IMG/VR virus record: IMGVR_UViG_3300008217_000025
Location: 1-34,989 of that record
Length of the DNA stretch: 34,989 nucleotides
Reading direction: 5' to 3' (one strand)
Origin: a virus
Notes under the pieces: generated by a model
What the model saw: the letters and a program-made list of their open reading frames with translations, nothing else
Databases searched by the model: none
Told to the model about the DNA's origin: nothing
Shown: positions 8,652-31,439 of the stretch, piece by piece
Layout of the letters: the number at the start of each line of letters is the position of its first letter
Position numbering within the stretch: position 1 is the first letter of the stretch
Position numbers and translations under genes: made by a program

Positions 8652-11600
8652 ATGCCACACATACCAGGTCACCTTTTTATTGATAGGAATCAGCTAAAGA
8701 AAGATCTCGACCGCCTCCTCGAAGAGACCAATGGCGATCCTACAGATCGCTTGCTACGCAGGCCTGACCTGACGACTCCTTCTACAAAGCCCTTTAGATA
8801 CGGGCCTCTGAGCGCATTCTATGTCCAGGGTTCTACCCCTGCCCCTCCGGAAGCTGCCCCTCCGGAAGCTGCCCCTGGGCCAGATATCTTAGATCAACCC
8901 GCGTACCTCCCTGACCAGGCACTCCCGGACTCGGACCTCTCAGACATCGTGCCCCCAGGATCTCTTGGAACTATTGCCATGCTCCCACAAGATGAAGATA
9001 GCCTCGGACTTATTGCCCAGATTCAGGACAAGGCCTATGAAGTCATTGGAGAACTAGGAGATATATTGCCCCATTACCCAACCGAGGTGCCGAGGCAAGC
9101 TGTAGGGGATCAGCTCAAGAGGCTCATACAACATGAAATTGAATCGGTCAAGACAAACCTTCAAACCCTCCAGAAGGTAGCGGAGGTGAGCGGTGCGGTA
9201 GGCATTAATACTATCGCCGATATGATTGCTAAGCGGCTACGGGTGAAGCAAGGATCAATTCTCCCAACTGCCATCACGGCCAGAGAAGGGGTTTGGGGAG
9301 AATTAATACAAGAAATTCAAGCGTATAAAACGGAACACGGCAGCCTCCCCAACCTCGACCAAATACTTGAAATGTCAAAGAAGATTACCCCTCTTCCCAA
9401 GTACGTGCGCGGTCTCGCAGAAGTGTTCTTTGACATTACTAACCTAATAGGGATTGGGCCGGTGACCAAGGGCCACAAAGTACTTCGCTCCTTCTATGCG
9501 GGAGGGGAGAAGGCCATCCCCAGAGTTGCGACTGTGAAGGCAACTGAGGAAGCCGTCCCTCCCATCATCACACGGGAGGCGGTACAAGAAGCTGCCTCCC
9601 CGCCCATAGGTAAGCCTGTGACCGCGGCATCGGACATAACTGCGCTGGTAGGGGATATTCCTACTGCGGGTGAGGTGATGGGAGCCCATTTTGTCAAAGA
9701 TAGAATCCAGCAGATGATTGATAGCCTAGAATCCATCCCTGGTTTCAAGGTGACTGTCGGCAAGGTTATCAATCTAGCTAACCCCATCGCTCATATTGAG
9801 AATGTAGGCCATAAGGCCATGGCGATCCGCTTTTTATTGCGTGATATGGGCAAGCAGAAGGTCCAGAGTATCACAGCATCATGGATGCAGTTTAGAAATG
9901 TGCGGGCTACATTCGGCAAGATGGATGATACCGGTACCTTCATCGACGGACCCTTCAAGGGCAAGTTCTTCAACGATATTCGTAACCGTCCCAACGCATA
10001 TGTCGATGAACTAACGCTTGAGCAACGCAAGTATATAGATCTCCTTAACCAAATCGATGAGGCCCTAACTGATTACGCCATCGCCAATGGCATAGATATA
10101 GTCAAGATGCACATCGATGAAGGAGCGTTTTTTGCGGGCCGGAGGGTATGGGGCAAGGTGGTTGAGACCATTGATGGGCCGGTTGTCCAAAGGCCCAAAT
10201 ATATGGCAGGGGCCCGGAACCCCCGATTGTCCGCTCAGAAGCATAGGCAGCAAACTGGAACAATGGAGGAGGCTGTCGCTGATGGGCTTCGTTATCTTCC
10301 TGACGAAGAGGCGCTGATGCTTAAAGCGCAAGCCATCTTCAACCGAGTATCTGACGAAAGGGCCTTTGGTTGGCTTCTCGACAATACTCCCTGGATGCCC
10401 AGCCCGGCCTCTATACAAAAGGCACTCAGTGTGGCTAGGTTAGGCGCAGCGAAGTGGGTTGAGAAAGCCCGGAAGCTCGACATTGAATGGAGGGCGCTCA
10501 ATGATCGGCCGGTATCCATTCCGGTAGACTCCCTAGATGACGCCCTGAGATCCCTTAACCTGGGCGATATCCTTCGGCCGAAGAGACCTAAGGCCGACAT
10601 CCTCGGTAAAGATATTGGGAAAATGCAGGGCGGCATTAGAACAACCCTGCGAAGGATGGAGGTACTCAAGCGAAAAGCCGCGAAGGCCAAAGACGTAGAG
10701 GCCTTACGGCTACTAAAAGCCGTGACAGCTGCGGAGAAAAAGCTAAATAAGTACAGCGACGATCTAGACGAGGTGCGTCCTCTGTGGCAGGAGGCTGTAA
10801 GGCAAAGCTCGAAAAAGGATCTTCTTGAAGCCACCGTAGACGCCCCTGGAATGGCCGGCAAAATCCTTACTGGTCCTGACGCCCAGGATATAGCTGAGAC
10901 CATTCGTAAGACCCTCGATCGAAAAGAATCGGAAATACTCCGTAAGATCAATAAGCCCCTTGCGTTCGCTAGGTTCATAAAGCTTGGCGGCGATGCTTCC
11001 CTGTTTTTGATCCAGGGTATATGGCTCTTAGGGCAGCCTATAACCATGTCAAAAATGGTGAGAGCATTTGTCCGGGGGATGCTTGACCCTGAGGCTCATG
11101 CTGCATACATCGCCCGGAATCAAGATATCCTGGCGTCATCTCCTGGTTTGAAACTGGCCTATGGTGGGGGGAACCAAATCACCGAGGCAATCATAGCTAA
11201 TACCGGGTATGCCCACACGGGGGCTAAGATCCTGAAGGCCCCCATGAAGGTGATAGAGCCATTCGCAAGGGGCTGGGAGTTTGGGATGGACATGGCTGGC
11301 ATTGAGCTAAAGAAGTCCCTTAGGCATATGGCAACGGATGCCGCCTCTAACGCACAGGTAGACGCCTTTGTAAACGAGTTCAGGGGGCTCTTCTCGGCAT
11401 CCAGGATTGGAGTATCTCCGCTACAGCAGCAAATTGAGGGCGCGACGTTGCTAGCTTCTCAGTACAATCGTGCGATAGCAGCCCTGGCGTTAGATTTGTT
11501 CCGGGGAAACATCAGGGGGCGCCTGGCACGTAGGGGTCTAGCGCGGGGGGCTGGGGCGATTTCCCTGATGATGGGTGCTCTCTATTATGCAAAGTATACC

Positions 11601-13163
11601 AACGAAGGGGTGCCCCAGAAGGATATCCCCGGGAAGATGTATAAACACTGGTTGCCCGTAATACCTAAAAAGGTTACAGTCCGGGGCCCTGATGGAGAGT
11701 TTATCGAGCGCACGGACTGGGTGTATAACCCAGACTTTCAGATGATCGAGATAGCAGGCCAGAGGGTAGGCCCGGGCTCTAAGATGTATTCCATCCTGAA
11801 CATCCTGGCCAAGTCTGCTGCTGATCCCGATACATTACTTGAGGTATTCACCGAGGACTGGATGTCTAATCCCGCCCTGAGATTTATAAGGAGCAATCTC
11901 AGTATTGGGCTTGGTAAAGGCCTGGACTTGCTTACAGGGGAGGACTTCATGGGAGACCTGACCCGTGAGGGGGGATGGAGCCTGGAGGGAGCTGTAAACG
12001 CAGGCAAGACTGTAGGAGAGAGCTTTGTCCCACTCTGGATTAGCTCTGCCCTTTGGGAGGGGCGAGAGTTGGGAAGAGGAAGCTTAGCGAGAGGCGCGGC
12101 GGACTTCTGGGGGCTTAAAGGCTTTGAGCAGTCCCGTTATGCTGAATGGCTACAGTATGCAGAAGAGGCGGAGCGTAACCTTTATGAGACAGACCCAGCT
12201 AAATTCCAGGAGATCTATCCAGGCTTGAGCCCCCAGGATATAACCGCAGATGCGATGCCCGGACATCGCATGAGGTATTACCAGAAAAGGGACCCTCAGG
12301 GCAAGACCATGTATCAAGCACATAAGGAGAACTCTGCAAGAAGAGGCCGCGCTAATGAGGCCGGCCTACAGATAGAGGTCTGGAATAAAGAGCGTATGGT
12401 CGAGCTAGAAGAGGCAGAGACCCAGTTCGCTGCCGGTCAGATCAATGCAAAGAGATTCAGGGAGATTTATAAGGAGTCTGGCTCCGGCCTGGGGAGTAAG
12501 ATTGACGGACTCAAGACATTACCGAAGTACAAGAAAGCGTGGGAGGAACTAGAGGACCCACCCCGATCGACAAAGCCGGATGTGGTTGCCTATTGGCGCC
12601 TCATGCGGATTCTTACTGATAACGCAGATGATGCCTTCCCAAGGCAAAAGGGGGAAGATCCAATCCCCTTGTTTGACACGATTTTTGGATATGACTATAG
12701 GGCGCAAAGGGATGTGATAAAGAGGCTAGAGAATGAGGTGGGTCCTGAGGTATGGAAAGACGTTCTGGAGATACGGTCATATAGGGAGGATAGCCTTCCA
12801 CAGATGGCCAAAGACCTAATACAGGCTCGTAAGGATCTCGAGCCCTATTGGGATGTCTTTGAAAAAGTCTTTGATGTAGAAGCGGAGAGATTGAATGTGG
12901 TCCCTGAGGTCATAAGGGCGCATATTGACAGCTATCTCAGGCAGTCGTTAATAGAGCAAAAGAGAACCCCTTTGATGCACATGGAATTCGACGTCGGCAC
13001 CGAAGGTGCTAAACTTCAGGGCGTAGTGCATAGTTCGATAATAACGGCAGCGAAGGATGCTCAGGAGATGTTCTTGTTGCAGCCGCAATACGCGCACCTA
13101 AAAGCCCTTGCTGTGCTGTGGGACTATGAAACGGGTCTTCCTCTCCACCTTCTCACTGATTAG
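8652..13163 (+). CDS. giant virion protein (1503 aa), candidate internal/ejection protein
   Basis: This is the largest gene in the window. The N-terminal 100 residues are Pro/Ala-rich, with a duplicated PPEAA unit near 66-77. Long helical charged stretches dominate. The block around residues 770-980 contains FIKLGGDASLFLIQGIWLLG, a downstream GISPLQQQIEGA-like segment (here IGVSPLQQQIEGA) and a hydrophobic stretch AGAISLMMGALYYAKY. From memory this block resembles very large proteins of uncultured phages that carry a large-polyvalent-protein-associated region. No lysozyme or peptidase active site is seen. Its size and position between portal and scaffold suggest an internal protein ejected with the genome, or a tape-measure substitute. 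That role is inferred. Confidence 0.75.
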   Translation: MPHIPGHLFIDRNQLKKDLDRLLEETNGDPTDRLLRRPDLTTPSTKPFRYGPLSAFYVQGSTPAPPEAAPPEAAPGPDILDQPAYLPDQALPDSDLSDIVPPGSLGTIAMLPQDEDSLGLIAQIQDKAYEVIGELGDILPHYPTEVPRQAVGDQLKRLIQHEIESVKTNLQTLQKVAEVSGAVGINTIADMIAKRLRVKQGSILPTAITAREGVWGELIQEIQAYKTEHGSLPNLDQILEMSKKITPLPKYVRGLAEVFFDITNLIGIGPVTKGHKVLRSFYAGGEKAIPRVATVKATEEAVPPIITREAVQEAASPPIGKPVTAASDITALVGDIPTAGEVMGAHFVKDRIQQMIDSLESIPGFKVTVGKVINLANPIAHIENVGHKAMAIRFLLRDMGKQKVQSITASWMQFRNVRATFGKMDDTGTFIDGPFKGKFFNDIRNRPNAYVDELTLEQRKYIDLLNQIDEALTDYAIANGIDIVKMHIDEGAFFAGRRVWGKVVETIDGPVVQRPKYMAGARNPRLSAQKHRQQTGTMEEAVADGLRYLPDEEALMLKAQAIFNRVSDERAFGWLLDNTPWMPSPASIQKALSVARLGAAKWVEKARKLDIEWRALNDRPVSIPVDSLDDALRSLNLGDILRPKRPKADILGKDIGKMQGGIRTTLRRMEVLKRKAAKAKDVEALRLLKAVTAAEKKLNKYSDDLDEVRPLWQEAVRQSSKKDLLEATVDAPGMAGKILTGPDAQDIAETIRKTLDRKESEILRKINKPLAFARFIKLGGDASLFLIQGIWLLGQPITMSKMVRAFVRGMLDPEAHAAYIARNQDILASSPGLKLAYGGGNQITEAIIANTGYAHTGAKILKAPMKVIEPFARGWEFGMDMAGIELKKSLRHMATDAASNAQVDAFVNEFRGLFSASRIGVSPLQQQIEGATLLASQYNRAIAALALDLFRGNIRGRLARRGLARGAGAISLMMGALYYAKYTNEGVPQKDIPGKMYKHWLPVIPKKVTVRGPDGEFIERTDWVYNPDFQMIEIAGQRVGPGSKMYSILNILAKSAADPDTLLEVFTEDWMSNPALRFIRSNLSIGLGKGLDLLTGEDFMGDLTREGGWSLEGAVNAGKTVGESFVPLWISSALWEGRELGRGSLARGAADFWGLKGFEQSRYAEWLQYAEEAERNLYETDPAKFQEIYPGLSPQDITADAMPGHRMRYYQKRDPQGKTMYQAHKENSARRGRANEAGLQIEVWNKERMVELEEAETQFAAGQINAKRFREIYKESGSGLGSKIDGLKTLPKYKKAWEELEDPPRSTKPDVVAYWRLMRILTDNADDAFPRQKGEDPIPLFDTIFGYDYRAQRDVIKRLENEVGPEVWKDVLEIRSYREDSLPQMAKDLIQARKDLEPYWDVFEKVFDVEAERLNVVPEVIRAHIDSYLRQSLIEQKRTPLMHMEFDVGTEGAKLQGVVHSSIITAAKDAQEMFLLQPQYAHLKALAVLWDYETGLPLHLLTD

Positions 13164-13199
13164 GGGTAGGGCCTAGCAAGGCTTAGGGCAGGAGCTTAT

Positions 13200-13361
13200 A
13201 TGGTTACTAGACCCAAGGACGCCCCGGTATACTGCGACTGCTGCGGAATAGATAGGCGTGTGAAGATGGCCGACATCCGCGATGGTCGCCTGACCATTCT
13301 CGACAAGAGGCACGGGCGTAGGCACGTGGCGGTGGTTGTACTTGACAAGTTCACACAATAG
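13200..13361 (+). CDS. small CxCC-containing protein (53 aa)
   Basis: The ATG follows GGAGCTTAT. The product begins MVTRPKDAPVYCDCCG and ends in a beta-strand-like VAVVVLDKF, like a half zinc ribbon. No family is recognised. It is the last gene before the terminator at 13407, which separates it from the scaffold-capsid operon. Confidence 0.65.
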   Translation: MVTRPKDAPVYCDCCGIDRRVKMADIRDGRLTILDKRHGRRHVAVVVLDKFTQ

Positions 13362-13406
13362 GAACAATAATAAAAAATAAGGTGGCTTAGGTCGCCCAGG
13401 CTGAGA

Positions 13407-13447
13407 AGGCCCTCGTAGGTAGCTCGACTACCAGGGGGTCTTTTTTA
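13407..13447 (+). terminator. rho-independent terminator
   Basis: AGGCCCTC and GGTAG on the 5' side pair with CTACC and GGGGGTCT on the 3' side, with a small bulge and a CTCGA loop, and TTTTTTATT follows directly. It separates upstream head genes from the scaffold and capsid genes, whose high expression may need an independent level of transcription. Confidence 0.75.
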
Positions 13448-13501
13448 TTCTCCCGGGCCCCATACAGGGGCTGGGGGAAAGGGCCCAGGCAAGGAGGTCA
13501 T

Positions 13502-14239
13502 ATGGCAGACGATCAAGCATCAGGCCCCCCGGAGCAGTTACCCATGCCTGACTCCGCGCAGAGTGAGGGTGGGGAGACGGGCCAACCGGAGGTTGAGATT
13601 GATTGGCAGGCCAGGAACGGGGAGTCCCAGCAGCGTATCGTGCAGTTGGAGAAGGACAATAAGTCCCTCCGAGGGAACCTCCGTAAGGGGGAGGCCCAGG
13701 AGCGCATCATTCAGGATAATACCCACAAGATCGACGCCATCCTGGAGACCATGGGTGCTGTAGTTAAGGCCATAGGCTCTGACAACAGTGAATCCCTGGG
13801 CGAGGAGGTGGACCAAATCCAGGCCAAGTTCGCGCAGACCGCGGCCTCTGGTCGATATGAGGCATCTCACCAGTCCCTACTGGATCGGTTTGGGGAGCTG
13901 GTAGGCGAGGCCGGATTGGATCTTCAGGGCGCCCCTGAGTTGAAGAAGGTACGCAACGACTGGAATAAAGCCAACGAAAATCGTGACATCGCTGGTGTCT
14001 CCTCGGCCTTCGCAGAGGGTGTGATGCTGGTAAGCAAGTTCAAGGAAGGAAAGCAAGATAAGGCGGTCGCAGAGACAAGGGAGTCAGCCCTGGAGCAGGC
14101 CGCCGTTTTAGACACAGACACTGGGCCTAGCCCGGGCGCTGCCACCGGTCTACGGGGCGAGGAGCTATGGAAAGCCTACGGACGCGGTGAGGTACCCTGG
14201 AGTCAGAAGGTTAAGGAAGCAGGCCGAACTCTAGCTTAA
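13502..14239 (+). CDS. capsid scaffolding protein
   Basis: Scaffolds direct prohead assembly and leave before DNA fills the head. The evidence is the position immediately before the major capsid gene, an acidic disordered N-terminus, a predicted coiled coil (about residues 38-60, QQRIVQLEKDNKSLRGNLRK), a generally helical charged body and a length of 245 residues. The start has a textbook AAGGAGG six bases upstream. There is no protease domain, so it is not a fused protease-scaffold. Confidence 0.8.
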   Translation: MADDQASGPPEQLPMPDSAQSEGGETGQPEVEIDWQARNGESQQRIVQLEKDNKSLRGNLRKGEAQERIIQDNTHKIDAILETMGAVVKAIGSDNSESLGEEVDQIQAKFAQTAASGRYEASHQSLLDRFGELVGEAGLDLQGAPELKKVRNDWNKANENRDIAGVSSAFAEGVMLVSKFKEGKQDKAVAETRESALEQAAVLDTDTGPSPGAATGLRGEELWKAYGRGEVPWSQKVKEAGRTLA

Positions 14240-26159: not shown

Positions 26160-27038
26160 TTAGATAAAGCCCCTGAGTCTCTTGGAGCGGCTTGGGTGCC
26201 TTAGTTTCCTCAGTGCCCGCATCTGTATCTGGCGTATGCGCTCCCGTGTTACACCCAGCTCATGCCCGACTGCCTCAAGGGTCATGTCCGGCTGGCCATT
26301 CAGGCCGAATCGCAACTGGAGCACCCGTTGCTCACGGTCGCTGAGGCCTGCAAGGCTTTGCTGTAGAGCGTCACGCAAGGGGGCGTCTAGTATCGCCGCA
26401 TCCTCCGTTGAGAGGCTGTCCTCATCGGCAATAAACTCCACCTCTGGGGCCTCTCCAGAGAAGAAGCCGTCCTCGTCACGGAAGCGGCGCGTATACCGGA
26501 CTCGCCCCGTGCTGAAGTCCCTTGCGGAGTCCAGCGTCCTCAGGCGTCGGTCAATGCCTTCCTGGCGAGTCCACCACTGGGGCAGCCGCTCACTAGCCCG
26601 TGCCTCTGGATAGGACTCTCTCAGTCTTTCAACGCTCGCAATGATTTGGTTCCTGGCCCTCGCTCGCTCGCCCTCGGTCCGGAGGTATTCCGGAATCCTC
26701 ACGGCGAGGTCCAATTGCCTCAGTTCGGAGATGTGGGTGAGATAGGCATAACGGATGCAGGCAGCGGCATAGGTGCTGAACTTTCCGAGCGAGGGATCCC
26801 AGTTGTAGCAGCAGTGAAACAGCGTTATCGCTAGCTCGCCAACCAGGTCGTCGTACTCTTTCTTTGCTCGCATTGGACGCAAGACCCAGTGGATCAGCGG
26901 CATGTTGAGGCTCACCACCGACCACGCGGCGGAGAGGTAGTCCTTCTGCTTGCGGCAGTCCGCTCCGTTCTGCCCATAAGCCCACTTCAATGCCTGGAGG
27001 TCTTCAAGGGCCTGATCCCGCTCACCGCTGTTAGCCAC
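26160..27038 (-). CDS. phage-encoded sigma-70-family RNA polymerase sigma factor
   Basis: Sigma factors direct host RNA polymerase to promoters. Region 2 is recognisable at about residues 45-105: YDDLVGELAITLFHCCYNWD, then GKFSTYAAACIRYAYL. Region 4 occupies the last 65 residues: LSDREQRVLQLRFGLNGQ and VTRERIRQIQMRALRKLRHP, very close to primary RpoD-type sigmas. In region 2.3/2.4 the usual aromatic melting residues (T-W-W-I-R-Q) are replaced by A-A-C-I-R-Y, so -10 recognition probably differs. A GTG at 27038 overlaps the stop of an upstream zinc-ribbon gene (GGTGGCTAA) and is preferred. A GTG at 27125 gives a longer protein but swallows that gene. It ends 1 nt from the convergent gene. Confidence 0.9.
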   Translation of the reverse strand: MANSGERDQALEDLQALKWAYGQNGADCRKQKDYLSAAWSVVSLNMPLIHWVLRPMRAKKEYDDLVGELAITLFHCCYNWDPSLGKFSTYAAACIRYAYLTHISELRQLDLAVRIPEYLRTEGERARARNQIIASVERLRESYPEARASERLPQWWTRQEGIDRRLRTLDSARDFSTGRVRYTRRFRDEDGFFSGEAPEVEFIADEDSLSTEDAAILDAPLRDALQQSLAGLSDREQRVLQLRFGLNGQPDMTLEAVGHELGVTRERIRQIQMRALRKLRHPSRSKRLRGFI

Positions 27039-27141
27039 CGTCCACCGGCCCCATCCGGGTCCGCGCCGACCGCGTCGCACCCTCCACGCGCGTTTGGCCC
27101 GGAAACTCGTTGCCGCAGGGCTCACACCGCCAGGCTGTCAT
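27031..27141 (-). CDS. tiny zinc-ribbon protein (36 aa)
   Basis: The ATG sits in a TGATG overlap with the upstream stop codon. The product starts MTAWRCEPCGNEFPGQTR, a rubredoxin-like knuckle with a single C-x2-C, and its stop overlaps the sigma gene GTG. Coupled starts and stops on both sides support translation. Its role is unknown, and it could dimerise around a zinc ion. Confidence 0.55.
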   Translation of the reverse strand: MTAWRCEPCGNEFPGQTRVEGATRSARTRMGPVDGG

Positions 27142-28683: not shown

Positions 28684-28709
28684 GCCCCCCTCCTATTCCA
28701 AGGATGTGT

Positions 28710-28747
28710 TGTGTGTGTGTATATACAAGTGTGCTTACACACACACA
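28710..28747. repeat. 12-bp TG/CA inverted repeat
   Basis: TGTGTGTGTGTA at 28710-28721 is exactly complementary to TACACACACACA at 28736-28747, with a 14-nt loop. The left arm and TATATAC alternate purine and pyrimidine over about 18 nt, which favours Z-DNA or cruciform structure. It lies in the only long gap between the helicase stop and the regulator start. There is no T-tract for a classical terminator. Confidence 0.7.
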
Positions 28748-28792
28748 TTGTTTGATTGTCATGTGTCTCACTACCCGTGTACCCTACACACA

Positions 28793-30073
28793 TTAGTGGT
28801 GCCTATCGGCCTGGGCTAGGCCGTAGGGCTGTTCCCGCCCCGCCTTGGGCAGCTTAACAAAGGCCGATGAGTTCAGTACCTGGTAGAGATTTGAGCGGTC
28901 TATGTCGAGCGCCTCGGCGATCTCCGTCGCTGAGGCCGCCCCGGTTGGGTGATTTTCCAGGAGGGCCCGGATCAGTTGCAGGCGTGACATCTTCTGTCCC
29001 GAGGTAAGCTCCGGGAACTCCCTCGCCTGAGCCGGCCGTATCTCTGTGAGCCCGGACCCGTCCTCCGCGAACCCCAGCGCGTAATAGGATGTGGCCGGGA
29101 AGGCCATGTCATTGGCCTTAACCACCCTCAGTGCCACCCCACGGGTGAGGTCCTGGCGCTCCGAGAGCAACTGAATGCCAACGTCCTCCCCCGCATCGAA
29201 CATGACGCTCCCGTAAACATGATCCTTATCGCCCCGTGGGGGATGCCCGATTGCCAGCCAGGCACAGCCCAGGCTGTTCATCAGATTAACAAATATGTTA
29301 CCCGTTTCATTGCTCACCAGATCCCCCAGCCCAGTCCGCGAGATGGAGTCCAGGATCACAAGCCCGTCCGGGTTGGCCTGTCCCCATGTCCTGACGCTGG
29401 CAACCACCGCCGCTAGGCCCGTGCCCCTTGCGTGGAGGTAGGACACCCCGGTTGCACCGGTGATCCCAAGCGCCCGCCTGAGCCGGTACTCACGCGCCGC
29501 GAGGCTTTCCTTTGACCTCTCAAGATTGACATACACCACCGGTGCGGGGTACTCGATCTGCCAGAGGTGGTTGAGGCCCAGGCTTAGACACACAGCCATC
29601 GCCTGGCAGAGATAGGACTTGCCCCCGCCCTGCTCCCCGAACAGGATCGTGCCCGCGTTCCTAATAACGTATGGCCTCAGTGTCCATGGGCTGGCCCTCG
29701 GGGGTGTCTCTGCTGGCTCAAAGGTCTCTATCTCAAACTGGCTCTGCTCGTACTCCCGGATAACCCACAGGCAGAGAAGGTCGAGGTCGTGCGCGACACT
29801 CTCTTTGGGGTAGGCGCCCTCCAGCACCGTGCCAAAGGCGGCACTGGCCCGACGAGCGAGGCGGTTACGGTCCTCGGAGCGCCCGATGTTGAAGGTGTCG
29901 TGCCCGAACACACGCCCCTCGGTTGTGAGGGCCACGAATGCGTGCATCCCGGTGCTCGTCCTGCGGATATCGCGCAGGGTGATTGTTACTATGACCCCGG
30001 GCGCGGGCTCACGGGGCCAGTCAACGCCCTGGCTAGAGCGGATTAAGTTCTCGAGGGCCGGTGGTATCGCCAA
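28793..30073 (-). CDS. RecA-fold (RepA/AAA_25-like) replicative helicase-type ATPase
   Basis: This protein probably unwinds or loads at replication forks together with the PrimPol encoded upstream. Walker A is GEQGGGKS (about residues 146-153). Walker B is LVILDS (about 238-243), and a sensor segment GCAWLAIGHPPRGDKDH lies near 269-285. These follow the hexameric RepA-like ATPase plan. The last 80 residues form a winged helix (SATEIAEALDIDRSNLYQVL). The N-terminal 135 residues are a separate beta-rich domain. The TTG start overlaps PrimPol by 41 nt, with AAGGGAG about 12 nt upstream; internal starts are possible. Confidence 0.85.
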   Translation of the reverse strand: MAIPPALENLIRSSQGVDWPREPAPGVIVTITLRDIRRTSTGMHAFVALTTEGRVFGHDTFNIGRSEDRNRLARRASAAFGTVLEGAYPKESVAHDLDLLCLWVIREYEQSQFEIETFEPAETPPRASPWTLRPYVIRNAGTILFGEQGGGKSYLCQAMAVCLSLGLNHLWQIEYPAPVVYVNLERSKESLAAREYRLRRALGITGATGVSYLHARGTGLAAVVASVRTWGQANPDGLVILDSISRTGLGDLVSNETGNIFVNLMNSLGCAWLAIGHPPRGDKDHVYGSVMFDAGEDVGIQLLSERQDLTRGVALRVVKANDMAFPATSYYALGFAEDGSGLTEIRPAQAREFPELTSGQKMSRLQLIRALLENHPTGAASATEIAEALDIDRSNLYQVLNSSAFVKLPKAGREQPYGLAQADRHH

Positions 30074-30872
30074 TTTTGGTCACAACTCCCTTCCGGTACG
30101 CACTGGCAACCGTCTGTTCAACCTCGTGGTTCGTCATGTCGTGGTTGGCCTCGTAGGACTGCCGCGTTCGAGTGATGAGCAACGGCAGCGCCTGCTCGAA
30201 TGGCATCCCAGCCTCTCTCAGCTTATGGGCCTCCACAAACAGTGTGTTGTTGCGATTGCCGTCCGCGACCTCATCCAGCCAGGGCCTTACACCCTCTGCT
30301 GGTGTCCCATCAGCCCGGGTGACGGTGGGCTCATACCTGTCGGGGTGCAGGTATTGCAGGCGTGCGCTGAGTAGCCTCCAGAGGGCCGCCATGCTCTCCC
30401 ACTCCAGGAGGGTATCGCGCACGATAGAGTACCCGGGCGATGGGGGCGCGGCCACCTGTGTGCCCGCGGCCTTGTGCTCGATGTAGAGCCGCTCGCCCTC
30501 CCAGGAGACGGGGAACTTTGAGGAGGGGGACGGCTTGATCTCTGTCAGGTACAGGTGCATGTTGCCCCGCGCGGTTCGTACCGCATAGACCCCCTGGTCG
30601 TGGGTCTTGATGATGTCATACACCGCCCGTGCCAACGACTGGGAGTCGATGTCTATCACGGCGAGGTTGCTTGATGCCGATCCAAGCAGGATGCCCAGCC
30701 CGGCCGCGCCCTCCCAGGGGAGTGCATCGATGGTCGGCATGTGCTGCCGAATGTTGGTCCAGTCGGTGACGATGGGACGCTTGGCGTAGCCCTGCGGATC
30801 GAGCTTCAGGGGCATACACGTCCACCGGTGTTGGTTGTAGTAATCCTCGGCAGCCTGGTGAAACGGAGTCAT
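30033..30872 (-). CDS. bifunctional DNA primase-polymerase (PrimPol, AEP superfamily)
   Basis: PrimPol proteins lay primers and extend them. The archaeo-eukaryotic primase core is visible: KRPIVTDW (about 31-38), the metal-binding AVIDIDS (D74 and D76), the conserved His motif ARGNMHLYL (H106) and the third-motif segment YIEHKAAGTQVAAPPS (about 130-145). The C-terminal 110 residues are helical and resemble a primase C-terminal linker. A good AGGGGACGCG ribosome site precedes the ATG. It heads a convincing replication pair with the ATPase, and transcription passes a hairpin just upstream. Confidence 0.9.
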   Translation of the reverse strand: MTPFHQAAEDYYNQHRWTCMPLKLDPQGYAKRPIVTDWTNIRQHMPTIDALPWEGAAGLGILLGSASSNLAVIDIDSQSLARAVYDIIKTHDQGVYAVRTARGNMHLYLTEIKPSPSSKFPVSWEGERLYIEHKAAGTQVAAPPSPGYSIVRDTLLEWESMAALWRLLSARLQYLHPDRYEPTVTRADGTPAEGVRPWLDEVADGNRNNTLFVEAHKLREAGMPFEQALPLLITRTRQSYEANHDMTNHEVEQTVASAYRKGVVTKIGDTTGPRELNPL

Positions 30873-30884
30873 CGCGTCCCCTTA

Positions 30885-30969
30885 AATAAAAACATAAAAA
30901 CCGCTCATCGCGCTGTGCCTTCGGTTGCCTGCTGGGACACCCGACGATACCTGCGATGAGCGGCTAGGT
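30885..30969 (-). ncRNA. candidate small RNA or attenuated leader upstream of primPol
   Basis: On the - strand, CCGCTCATCGC (30963-30953) pairs perfectly over 11 bp with GCGATGAGCGG (30911-30901), enclosing 41 nt. TTTTTATGTTTTTATTT follows directly. Inside, GTGTC can pair with GGCAC, giving a branched fold. A sigma-70-type promoter (TTGCTG, 17 nt, TACAAT) ends about 7 nt before the expected 5' end near 30969. The unit therefore has promoter, compact structure and T-tract over about 80 nt, immediately before the PrimPol ribosome site. It may be a free sRNA or a conditional terminator in the leader. Confidence 0.5.
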
Positions 30970-31003
30970 TCGCGTATTGTACGGCATCGTTCGTGTCCCA
31001 GCA
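30930..31003. repeat. inverted repeat flanking the promoter, operator candidate
   Basis: TGCTGGGACAC (30930-30940) recurs as its reverse complement GTGTCCCAGCA (30993-31003). Beyond it, the inner flanks share a degenerate ACGAT(A/G)CC on both sides (30944-30951 and 30983-30990). The arms bracket the -10 box, and one overlaps the -35 box. Binding by a dimeric regulator with looping is the inferred role. Confidence 0.55.
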
Positions 31004-31004
31004 A
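30976..31004 (-). promoter_or_regulatory. sigma-70-type promoter for the sRNA/primPol operon
   Basis: On the - strand, -35 is TTGCTG (31004-30999), the spacer is 17 nt, and -10 is TACAAT (30981-30976). The -35 and spacer overlap one arm of an inverted repeat, so a repressor could bind there. The -35 matches consensus at only 3 of 6 positions. Confidence 0.5.
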
Positions 31005-31035
31005 GCCCGAGGGTACTACGAGTCTCGGCGGGGTG

Positions 31036-31296
31036 TCAAGGCATCAGGATCTTGAACTCCCCTGTCCCCGCACATGGCTGACACTTATAATGCCCTTCAT
31101 CTGGGTCCACGCCCTGGCCCGATGGACTCCAGGCATGCTCGCTTCGACCACGGCAGCACTGGCACGTCAGGAACCAATCGGTGCGAGAGCCTACGATCTC
31201 CGGACACGAGAAATTACCGCCATCGAGCGCGTCGTCTAGAGAGCAGCACTCCTCGGCCTTTACGGTGCGTCCGTCGATGAGAATGGTCTGGATCAT
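31036..31296 (-). CDS. zinc-ribbon early protein (86 aa)
   Basis: The ATG follows GGGGGGGGAGAA. The product carries CCSLDD and SCPEI near residues 17-32, then CQCCRGRSEHAW and CQPCAGTGEF, a DnaJ-like double C-x2-C set. It probably folds around one or two zinc ions. No function is assigned. The upstream 143 nt (31297-31439) hold no gene and no clear promoter. Confidence 0.65.
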   Translation of the reverse strand: MIQTILIDGRTVKAEECCSLDDALDGGNFSCPEIVGSRTDWFLTCQCCRGRSEHAWSPSGQGVDPDEGHYKCQPCAGTGEFKILMP

Positions 31297-31439
31297 TTCT
31301 CCCCCCCCATAAAGTTAATTTTATTTCTGTGATCCGCGTTATCCTACCGACGTGGTGGTCGCGGGCCGACCGAGGCAGTAGCCGCTTACGTCCCCGCCGC
31401 GTGGACAAGACGACGGCGGCGAACCCGCGTTGGGGGTAC

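Follow-up and report, generated by a model that had tools for sequence, protein, structure and literature searches.

Tandem promoters and interleaved hairpins in a probable RNA switch ahead of the replication genes of an uncultivated marine phage

The window analysed here is an entire virus record of 34,989 bases (IMGVR_UViG_3300008217_000025) in which the late genes (terminase, structural) are read rightward and the early genes, starting from the right end, leftward. Among the latter are a 276-aa gene, an 86-aa cysteine-rich ORF, a PrimPol, an AAA_25 helicase, a RusA-like resolvase and a phage sigma factor. The 160-base element that is the subject of this study lies on the minus strand at 30872-31042, in the 163-base gap separating the 86-aa ORF from PrimPol. 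The 86-aa ORF, directly upstream (ORF call; 31036-31296, minus strand), belongs to no family that a search could find, and a near-palindrome, ATAAAATTAACTTTAT, is present at 31309-31324 just upstream of its ribosome site. The first gene after the element encodes PrimPol (279 aa; 30033-30872, minus strand; Pfam Prim-Pol 1.9e-11 and PriCT_1 4.7e-06) and is followed by that of the AAA_25 replication helicase, with a C-terminal HTH and an exact start that is uncertain (28793-30073, minus strand; Pfam AAA_25 3.1e-16). The sigma factor (26160-27125, minus strand) has regions 2 and 4, and its only full-length relatives, at about 36%, were on two short contigs (L138/L165 and L164).

Read 5' to 3' on the minus strand the element consists of a promoter P1, an arm A that contains the -35 hexamer of a second promoter P2, the P2 -10 hexamer, an arm B, arms A' and B', a T tract, AAGGGG and ATG. 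P1 has the -35 hexamer TTGACA (31034-31039), overlapping the stop of the 86-aa ORF, and after an 18-nt spacer the -10 hexamer TACCCT (31010-31015); its predicted start at about 31003 is the first base of the arm A core. Arm A, GCTTGCTGGGACACGAACGATGCC, occupies 30983-31006 and the P2 -35 hexamer TTGCTG within it (31004-30999) is separated by 17 nt from TACAAT (30981-30976), which is the promoter described in an earlier note on this DNA made from its letters and open reading frames; P1, 35 nt before P2, had escaped that note. P2 is predicted to start at about 30969, just before arm B (AGCCGCTCATCGC, 30953-30965), both predicted starts assuming the usual 7-nt distance from the -10 hexamer. Arm A' (GGTATCGTCGGGTGTCCCAGCAGGC, 30927-30951) and arm B' (GCGATGAGCGGTT, 30899-30911) follow, then a T-rich tract of 17 nt (TTTTTATGTTTTTATTT, 30884-30900), the PrimPol ribosome-binding site AAGGGG (30878-30883) and the PrimPol ATG at 30872.

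The core of the B-B' stem is formed by CCGCTCATCGC (30963-30953) and GCGATGAGCGG (30911-30901) and encloses exactly 41 nt, so that the 11-bp closing stem, its 41-nt loop, the T tract and the ribosome site before PrimPol are all as the earlier note had them. That note had also seen a repeat shared with the promoter, and the repeat is indeed there, but its inverted nature and its interleaving with B-B' had been missed. The core of this A-A' repeat pairs TGCTGGGACAC (31003-30993), which overlaps the P2 -35 hexamer, with GTGTCCCAGCA (30940-30930), and with imperfections the pairing reaches about 22 bp. In the resulting order A-B-A'-B' the two stems could coexist solely as a pseudoknot. As a terminator, B-B' offers a GC-rich stem directly before a tract in which 14 of the 17 bases are T, with a loop of 41 nt that exceeds the usual intrinsic-terminator size. 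P2, B-B' and the T tract together predict a short RNA of about 84-85 nt (30886-30969).

A terminase search gave 80 loci. If a near-identical partial contig (L002, G001) without the element region is set aside, the top-ranking long record of these was G003 (IMGVR_UViG_2811995110_000251, 38,508 bases), whose terminase is 53% identical to that of the window. A single-sequence covariance model (R2), for which only the window's A-A' was used, matched G003 at L087 15439-15519 with 23.7 bits and an E value of 0.047 over 900 kb. The covariance search in related phages that the earlier note had proposed thus produced one homologue, and in it both stems are kept. The arrangement in G003 is TTGACA (15407)-18-TAGCAT, TTGCGG (15442)-17-TATACT, arms A, B, A' and B', TTTCCATTT and ATG. 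The P1 -35 hexamer (L087 15407-15412) is identical to that of the window, both promoters retain their 18- and 17-nt spacings, the distance between the two -35 hexamers is 35 nt in both phages, no core pair is broken, and the predicted starts (15443 for P1, 15477 for P2) fall at the corresponding arm positions. The T tract is weaker, since in G003 it is short and interrupted and only TTTCCATTT remains.

In the A-A' core, scored on an alignment made without structure (A6), all nine of nine pairs form in both phages, seven of them unchanged and two through double compensatory changes (T-A to G-C and A-T to T-A), and when the partners were shifted by 1-3 columns as a slide control only 24-44% of cells paired. 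Compensatory changes in the 11-bp stem, which had been put forward as a sign of function, are found as well: all 11 consecutive B-B' pairs form in both phages, with three double changes (G-C to C-G, A-T to G-C and C-G to G-C), two one-sided changes (T-A to T-G and G-T to G-C) and none broken. A shuffle control of the pair counter (142 of 500) has little power with two sequences, and for this reason the weight of the covariation lies in the five double changes, the lack of any broken core pair and the slide control. The same substitutions in A affect the P2 -35 hexamer and spacer, so part of the conservation of A could be promoter conservation.

The alignment of the element (74 of 109 positions identical) has a z of 7.4, compared with values between -1.0 and 2.7 in eight equally sized flanking blocks, and the early genes around it are without recognisable homology between the window and G003 except for the helicase, which is distant; a noncoding element is thus better conserved than the genes that surround it. 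Downstream of the element G003 has a 229-aa ORF without known family and then an AAA_25 helicase whose gene (L087 16158-18383) is split by an inserted LAGLIDADG-type intein (Pfam LAGLIDADG_3, 3.8e-09). Because a different gene follows the element in G003 it is conserved independently of PrimPol, a lack of connection that the earlier note had overlooked, and since it is kept better than its neighbours while the next gene differs, it may move between replication modules as a cassette for their control.

A variety of other searches for relatives were made. Among about 130 related records, most of them without the early region or with other replication modules, no third carrier of the element was found, and a search across all loci for interleaved repeats with T-rich tails gave no further leader like that of the window. 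The exact A/A' pattern had one match in viral contigs, inside a coding gene and attributable to chance, as was a plasmid blastn match of 31 bases; weak matches to a two-sequence covariance model of the window and G003 (R3) or to tandem promoters in L015, L092 and L143 lacked the architecture on reading. Relatives of PrimPol were sought with single-sequence patterns in phages, plasmids, viral contigs and genome contigs, and none were found; no record with a related PrimPol came from similarity searches that used PrimPol, the helicase, the sigma factor or the 86-aa protein as query, and among the named phages searched there was no relative usable for host assignment. Pfam Prim-Pol was found in 0 of 49 helicase-sharing records and in 1 of 40 other records, as a distant fused protein of 656 aa. 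Helicase relatives (L142, L123, L119, L099, L095 and others) have other genes in the place that PrimPol (30033-30872) takes in the window, L142 having a fused primase-like N-terminus there, and the primase module appears to be exchanged among them.

B-B' and A-A' are among the six distinct perfect inverted repeats of at least 11 bp in the window. In 300 dinucleotide shuffles of its full sequence an interleaved pair with two 11-bp stems never arose, and when A and B were held fixed and the remaining leader was shuffled 2000 times the energy of A was never reached, that of B was reached twice and both together were never reached. Compared with shuffles, the folding energy of the strand with A-A' was 4.5 SD lower and that of the P2 RNA with B-B' 3.1 SD lower. 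Only one other run like the T tract exists within the window. The P2 hexamers match the consensus at only 8 of 12 positions, a weak match in the window and in G003 alike which a consensus scan cannot tell from chance; the support for P2 comes, for that reason, from its conservation in G003, where the hexamer spacing is kept despite an altered spacer sequence. The window's best promoter match is elsewhere, a plus-strand TTGACA-18-AATAAT (11 of 12, 13342-13380), and the gap at 13163-13502 that holds it also holds a minus-strand T-rich run at 13380. The phage sigma factor could serve P1, P2 or the late genes.

Folds were computed along transcription, the last 10 nt of each growing RNA being treated as covered by the polymerase (one long-RNA fold for the window began at 31011). 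In both phages the growing P1 RNA has its core A-A' pairs complete by the time B' emerges, and B-B' is at no point formed in it, and the growing P2 RNA has 8 to 11 B-B' pairs with the polymerase in the T tract. The long RNA of the window, taken from 31003, folds to -43.1 kcal/mol with A-A' and to -38.0 kcal/mol with B-B', a preference for A-A' of 5.1 kcal/mol, and the corresponding values for G003 are -49.2 and -42.2, a preference of 7.0 kcal/mol. When arm A was made unavailable B-B' regained 11 of 11 pairs in both phages. The folding programs used forbid pseudoknots, and the mutual exclusion of A-A' and B-B' is therefore a topological argument. The predicted P2 short RNA folds to -35.2 kcal/mol and presents an apical hexaloop, CCAGCA (30930-30935, unpaired probability 0.9-1.0) in the window and UGACCC in G003, which in both cases is inside A' and nearly always unpaired, such exposure being a requirement for loop-to-linear contact with arm A. 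Cofolding of the A leader with the short RNA gave -44.5 kcal/mol for the window (-2.5 and -35.2 separately, a gain of about 7) and -50.6 kcal/mol for G003 (-4.2 and -34.2 separately, a gain of about 12). Outside its own hairpin the window short RNA has a complement of at least 11 nt in arm A only. The predicted short RNA of G003 has complements of 11 to 13 nt at G003 31223, 34530 and about 11004-11016, which may be chance or targets.

Since the layout is shared by a distant relative in which paired bases have changed together, the element is probably a real switch that sets the amount of replication machinery made. From the promoter motifs and spacings, the two stems and their covariation, the exposed loop and the fold energies, all of them computed, we infer a scheme of promoter activity, termination, topological exclusion, trans pairing and copy-number feedback. 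Transcription from P1, and any read-through from upstream genes, would produce an RNA that carries arm A, and A would pair with freshly made A' before B' exists, trapping B inside a closed loop. With B so enclosed and the 3' end held by the polymerase the full 11-bp B-B' stem would be blocked, and with it the terminator, and transcription would run on into PrimPol and the helicase. P2 would start downstream of A, so that its RNA begins at arm B, B-B' would form at the T tract and transcription would stop to give the short RNA of about 85 nt. The hexaloop of this RNA, from the middle of A', is complementary to arm A at the 5' end of the nascent P1 RNA, and pairing between the two RNAs could tie up A, leave B-B' free to form and end the P1 transcript early. 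The supply of short RNA would grow with the number of genome copies, so that a rising copy number would hold down the expression of the replication genes. No observation speaks directly for trans pairing over a cis switch alone; an A' able to pair with A within one RNA can equally pair with it between two.

Our leading interpretation, to which we give a probability of roughly 0.45, is a phage attenuator, conserved and placed before the replication module, with two exclusive RNA folds chosen by promoter use and a short RNA that would be able to pair with arm A of the long RNA and bring termination back. The earlier note had offered a small RNA or a conditional terminator ahead of the replication genes; the compensatory changes in G003 support this suggestion, both activities being predicted, and the anatomy suggests that both readings apply at once, with a short RNA from P2 and a P1 leader that has a conditional terminator. 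The more ambitious proposal, which we hold only tentatively, is of a new class of phage RNA regulator in which tandem promoters start at the 5' arms of interlocked hairpins so that the promoter used would by itself decide between read-through and termination, the terminated product inhibits the read-through product in trans to give copy-number feedback, and the phage encodes its own sigma factor.

An attenuator has to be weighed against several other explanations. P2 and B-B' might instead make a stand-alone RNA with host or phage targets, A-A' being only an insulator that lets transcripts from P1 or the upstream operon pass the small-RNA terminator. This would draw on the same promoter, fold and covariation evidence as the attenuator, an arm A that overlaps P2 is exactly the antiterminator it would need, and the short RNA of G003 does have its 11-13-nt complements elsewhere in that genome, at a few positions. 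However, in both phages the exposed hexaloop is inside A' and complementary to A, and a search of the window's genome found no other complement of at least 11 nt, so that a stand-alone role seems unlikely, though it deserves serious consideration. It is still harder to favour a leader that acts in cis only, its fold responding to a protein or metabolite or to how fast the polymerase or ribosomes move, with no functional short RNA and a spurious P2. The preferences of 5.1 kcal/mol in the window and 7.0 kcal/mol in G003 are of a size at which a ligand or protein could shift the balance, but the P2 hexamers hold their spacing in G003 while the spacer has changed, neither locus has an Rfam match, and the 7-codon leader ORF MPYNTRT is absent from G003. 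A trp-type leader peptide was considered and rejected on the same ground, this ORF (30987-30964) overlapping the switch without a counterpart in G003.

That the site works as DNA, as a replication origin, a cruciform or paired regulator operators with the RNA folding incidental, is improbable. The element does adjoin the primase and helicase genes and A-A' is an inverted repeat at the DNA level too, but the site has no direct repeats or iterons and no GC-skew turn, and the A-B-A'-B' order, the RNA starts at the 5' arms and the terminal T tract would be left unexplained. A better candidate for an origin or operator is an inverted-repeat cluster that follows the helicase directly, in the window as in many relatives, and an origin at the element was rejected on account of that cluster and the lack of iterons. 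The noncoding stretch in question (window 28684-28792, minus strand) carries a dense set of inverted repeats built on a short word, and similar stretches follow the AAA_25 helicase in L142 (6200-6415), L122 (6220-6400), L109 (6185-6310), L119 (6190-6400) and L123 (6140-6215), the word varying by phage (TGTGTG/CACACA, GTGTTGCC/GGCAACAC, CGTGAC/GTCACG, GTGTAACA/TGTTACAC). In 43 relatives the 300 bases after the helicase gene have a mean of 5.3 inverted 8-mers compared with 0.6 elsewhere, and the locus maximum is there in 15; the cluster is a candidate replication origin or set of sites for the helicase C-terminal HTH. Finally, a promoter and an unrelated terminator-like hairpin might stand side by side by ordinary chance, and consensus promoter and terminator scans alone do find no excess at the site. 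The shuffle tests and a covarying homologue with identical spacings make this scarcely credible, and chance is refuted as far as computation allows.

The conserved attenuator proposed here can be compared with a number of known systems. In the satellite phage P4 the CI RNA comes from the leader of the replication operon and pairs with sequences upstream (seqA) and downstream (seqC) of itself to cause premature termination (PMC4825925). Similarly, the predicted short RNA sits in the leader of phage replication genes, preceding PrimPol and the AAA_25 helicase in the window and the 229-aa ORF and AAA_25 helicase in G003, and it has an upstream target in the same leader, arm A, which covaries with A'. 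A downstream target like seqC was not found, there being no second exact CTGGGACAC and no 11-nt complement downstream, and CI RNA differs in being processed from a longer transcript, whereas the short RNA of the window has its own predicted promoter and terminator. For these reasons the element would work like P4 CI RNA without being counted as a member, and P4 CI has no sequence or Rfam match to it. Termination in P4 is largely Rho-dependent. No Rfam family (C4 and isrK included) matched the window or G003 at the gathering score, and at E values up to 5 the window gave only an irrelevant microRNA below the cut-off and G003 gave none.

The c4 antisense RNA of phages P1 and P7 is a short RNA from the same strand with target-complementary sequence in its loops (PMC12197685). 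The short RNA predicted here, with its complementary loop, resembles it, but c4 blocks translation of the ant mRNA whereas the anatomy of the element points to transcription termination before replication genes. In the IsrK system of the Gifsy-1 prophage a short terminated RNA and a long read-through RNA share a leader and the short one acts on the long one (PMC4825925); IsrK, however, has one promoter and activates translation, and the element has two promoters and predicted repression. GraL, the greA leader small RNA of E. coli, is produced by a leader terminator from two overlapping promoters (PMC6829880), but it belongs to a host gene and A-B-A'-B' interleaving is not established for it. 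In the pT181-type attenuators a small RNA switches the leader between read-through and termination (PMC3753616). They likewise govern replication genes through a leader switch, but in pT181 the regulator comes from the opposite strand, and over the leader described here consensus scans, which are weak evidence, gave no convincing plus-strand promoter-like site. To our knowledge few systems are known in which a leader RNA from the same strand controls phage replication genes, P4 being an example. If the attenuator is as proposed, uncultivated marine phages would provide another, and its logic would be compact, with the choice of promoter picking the fold and the terminated RNA inhibiting the read-through RNA.
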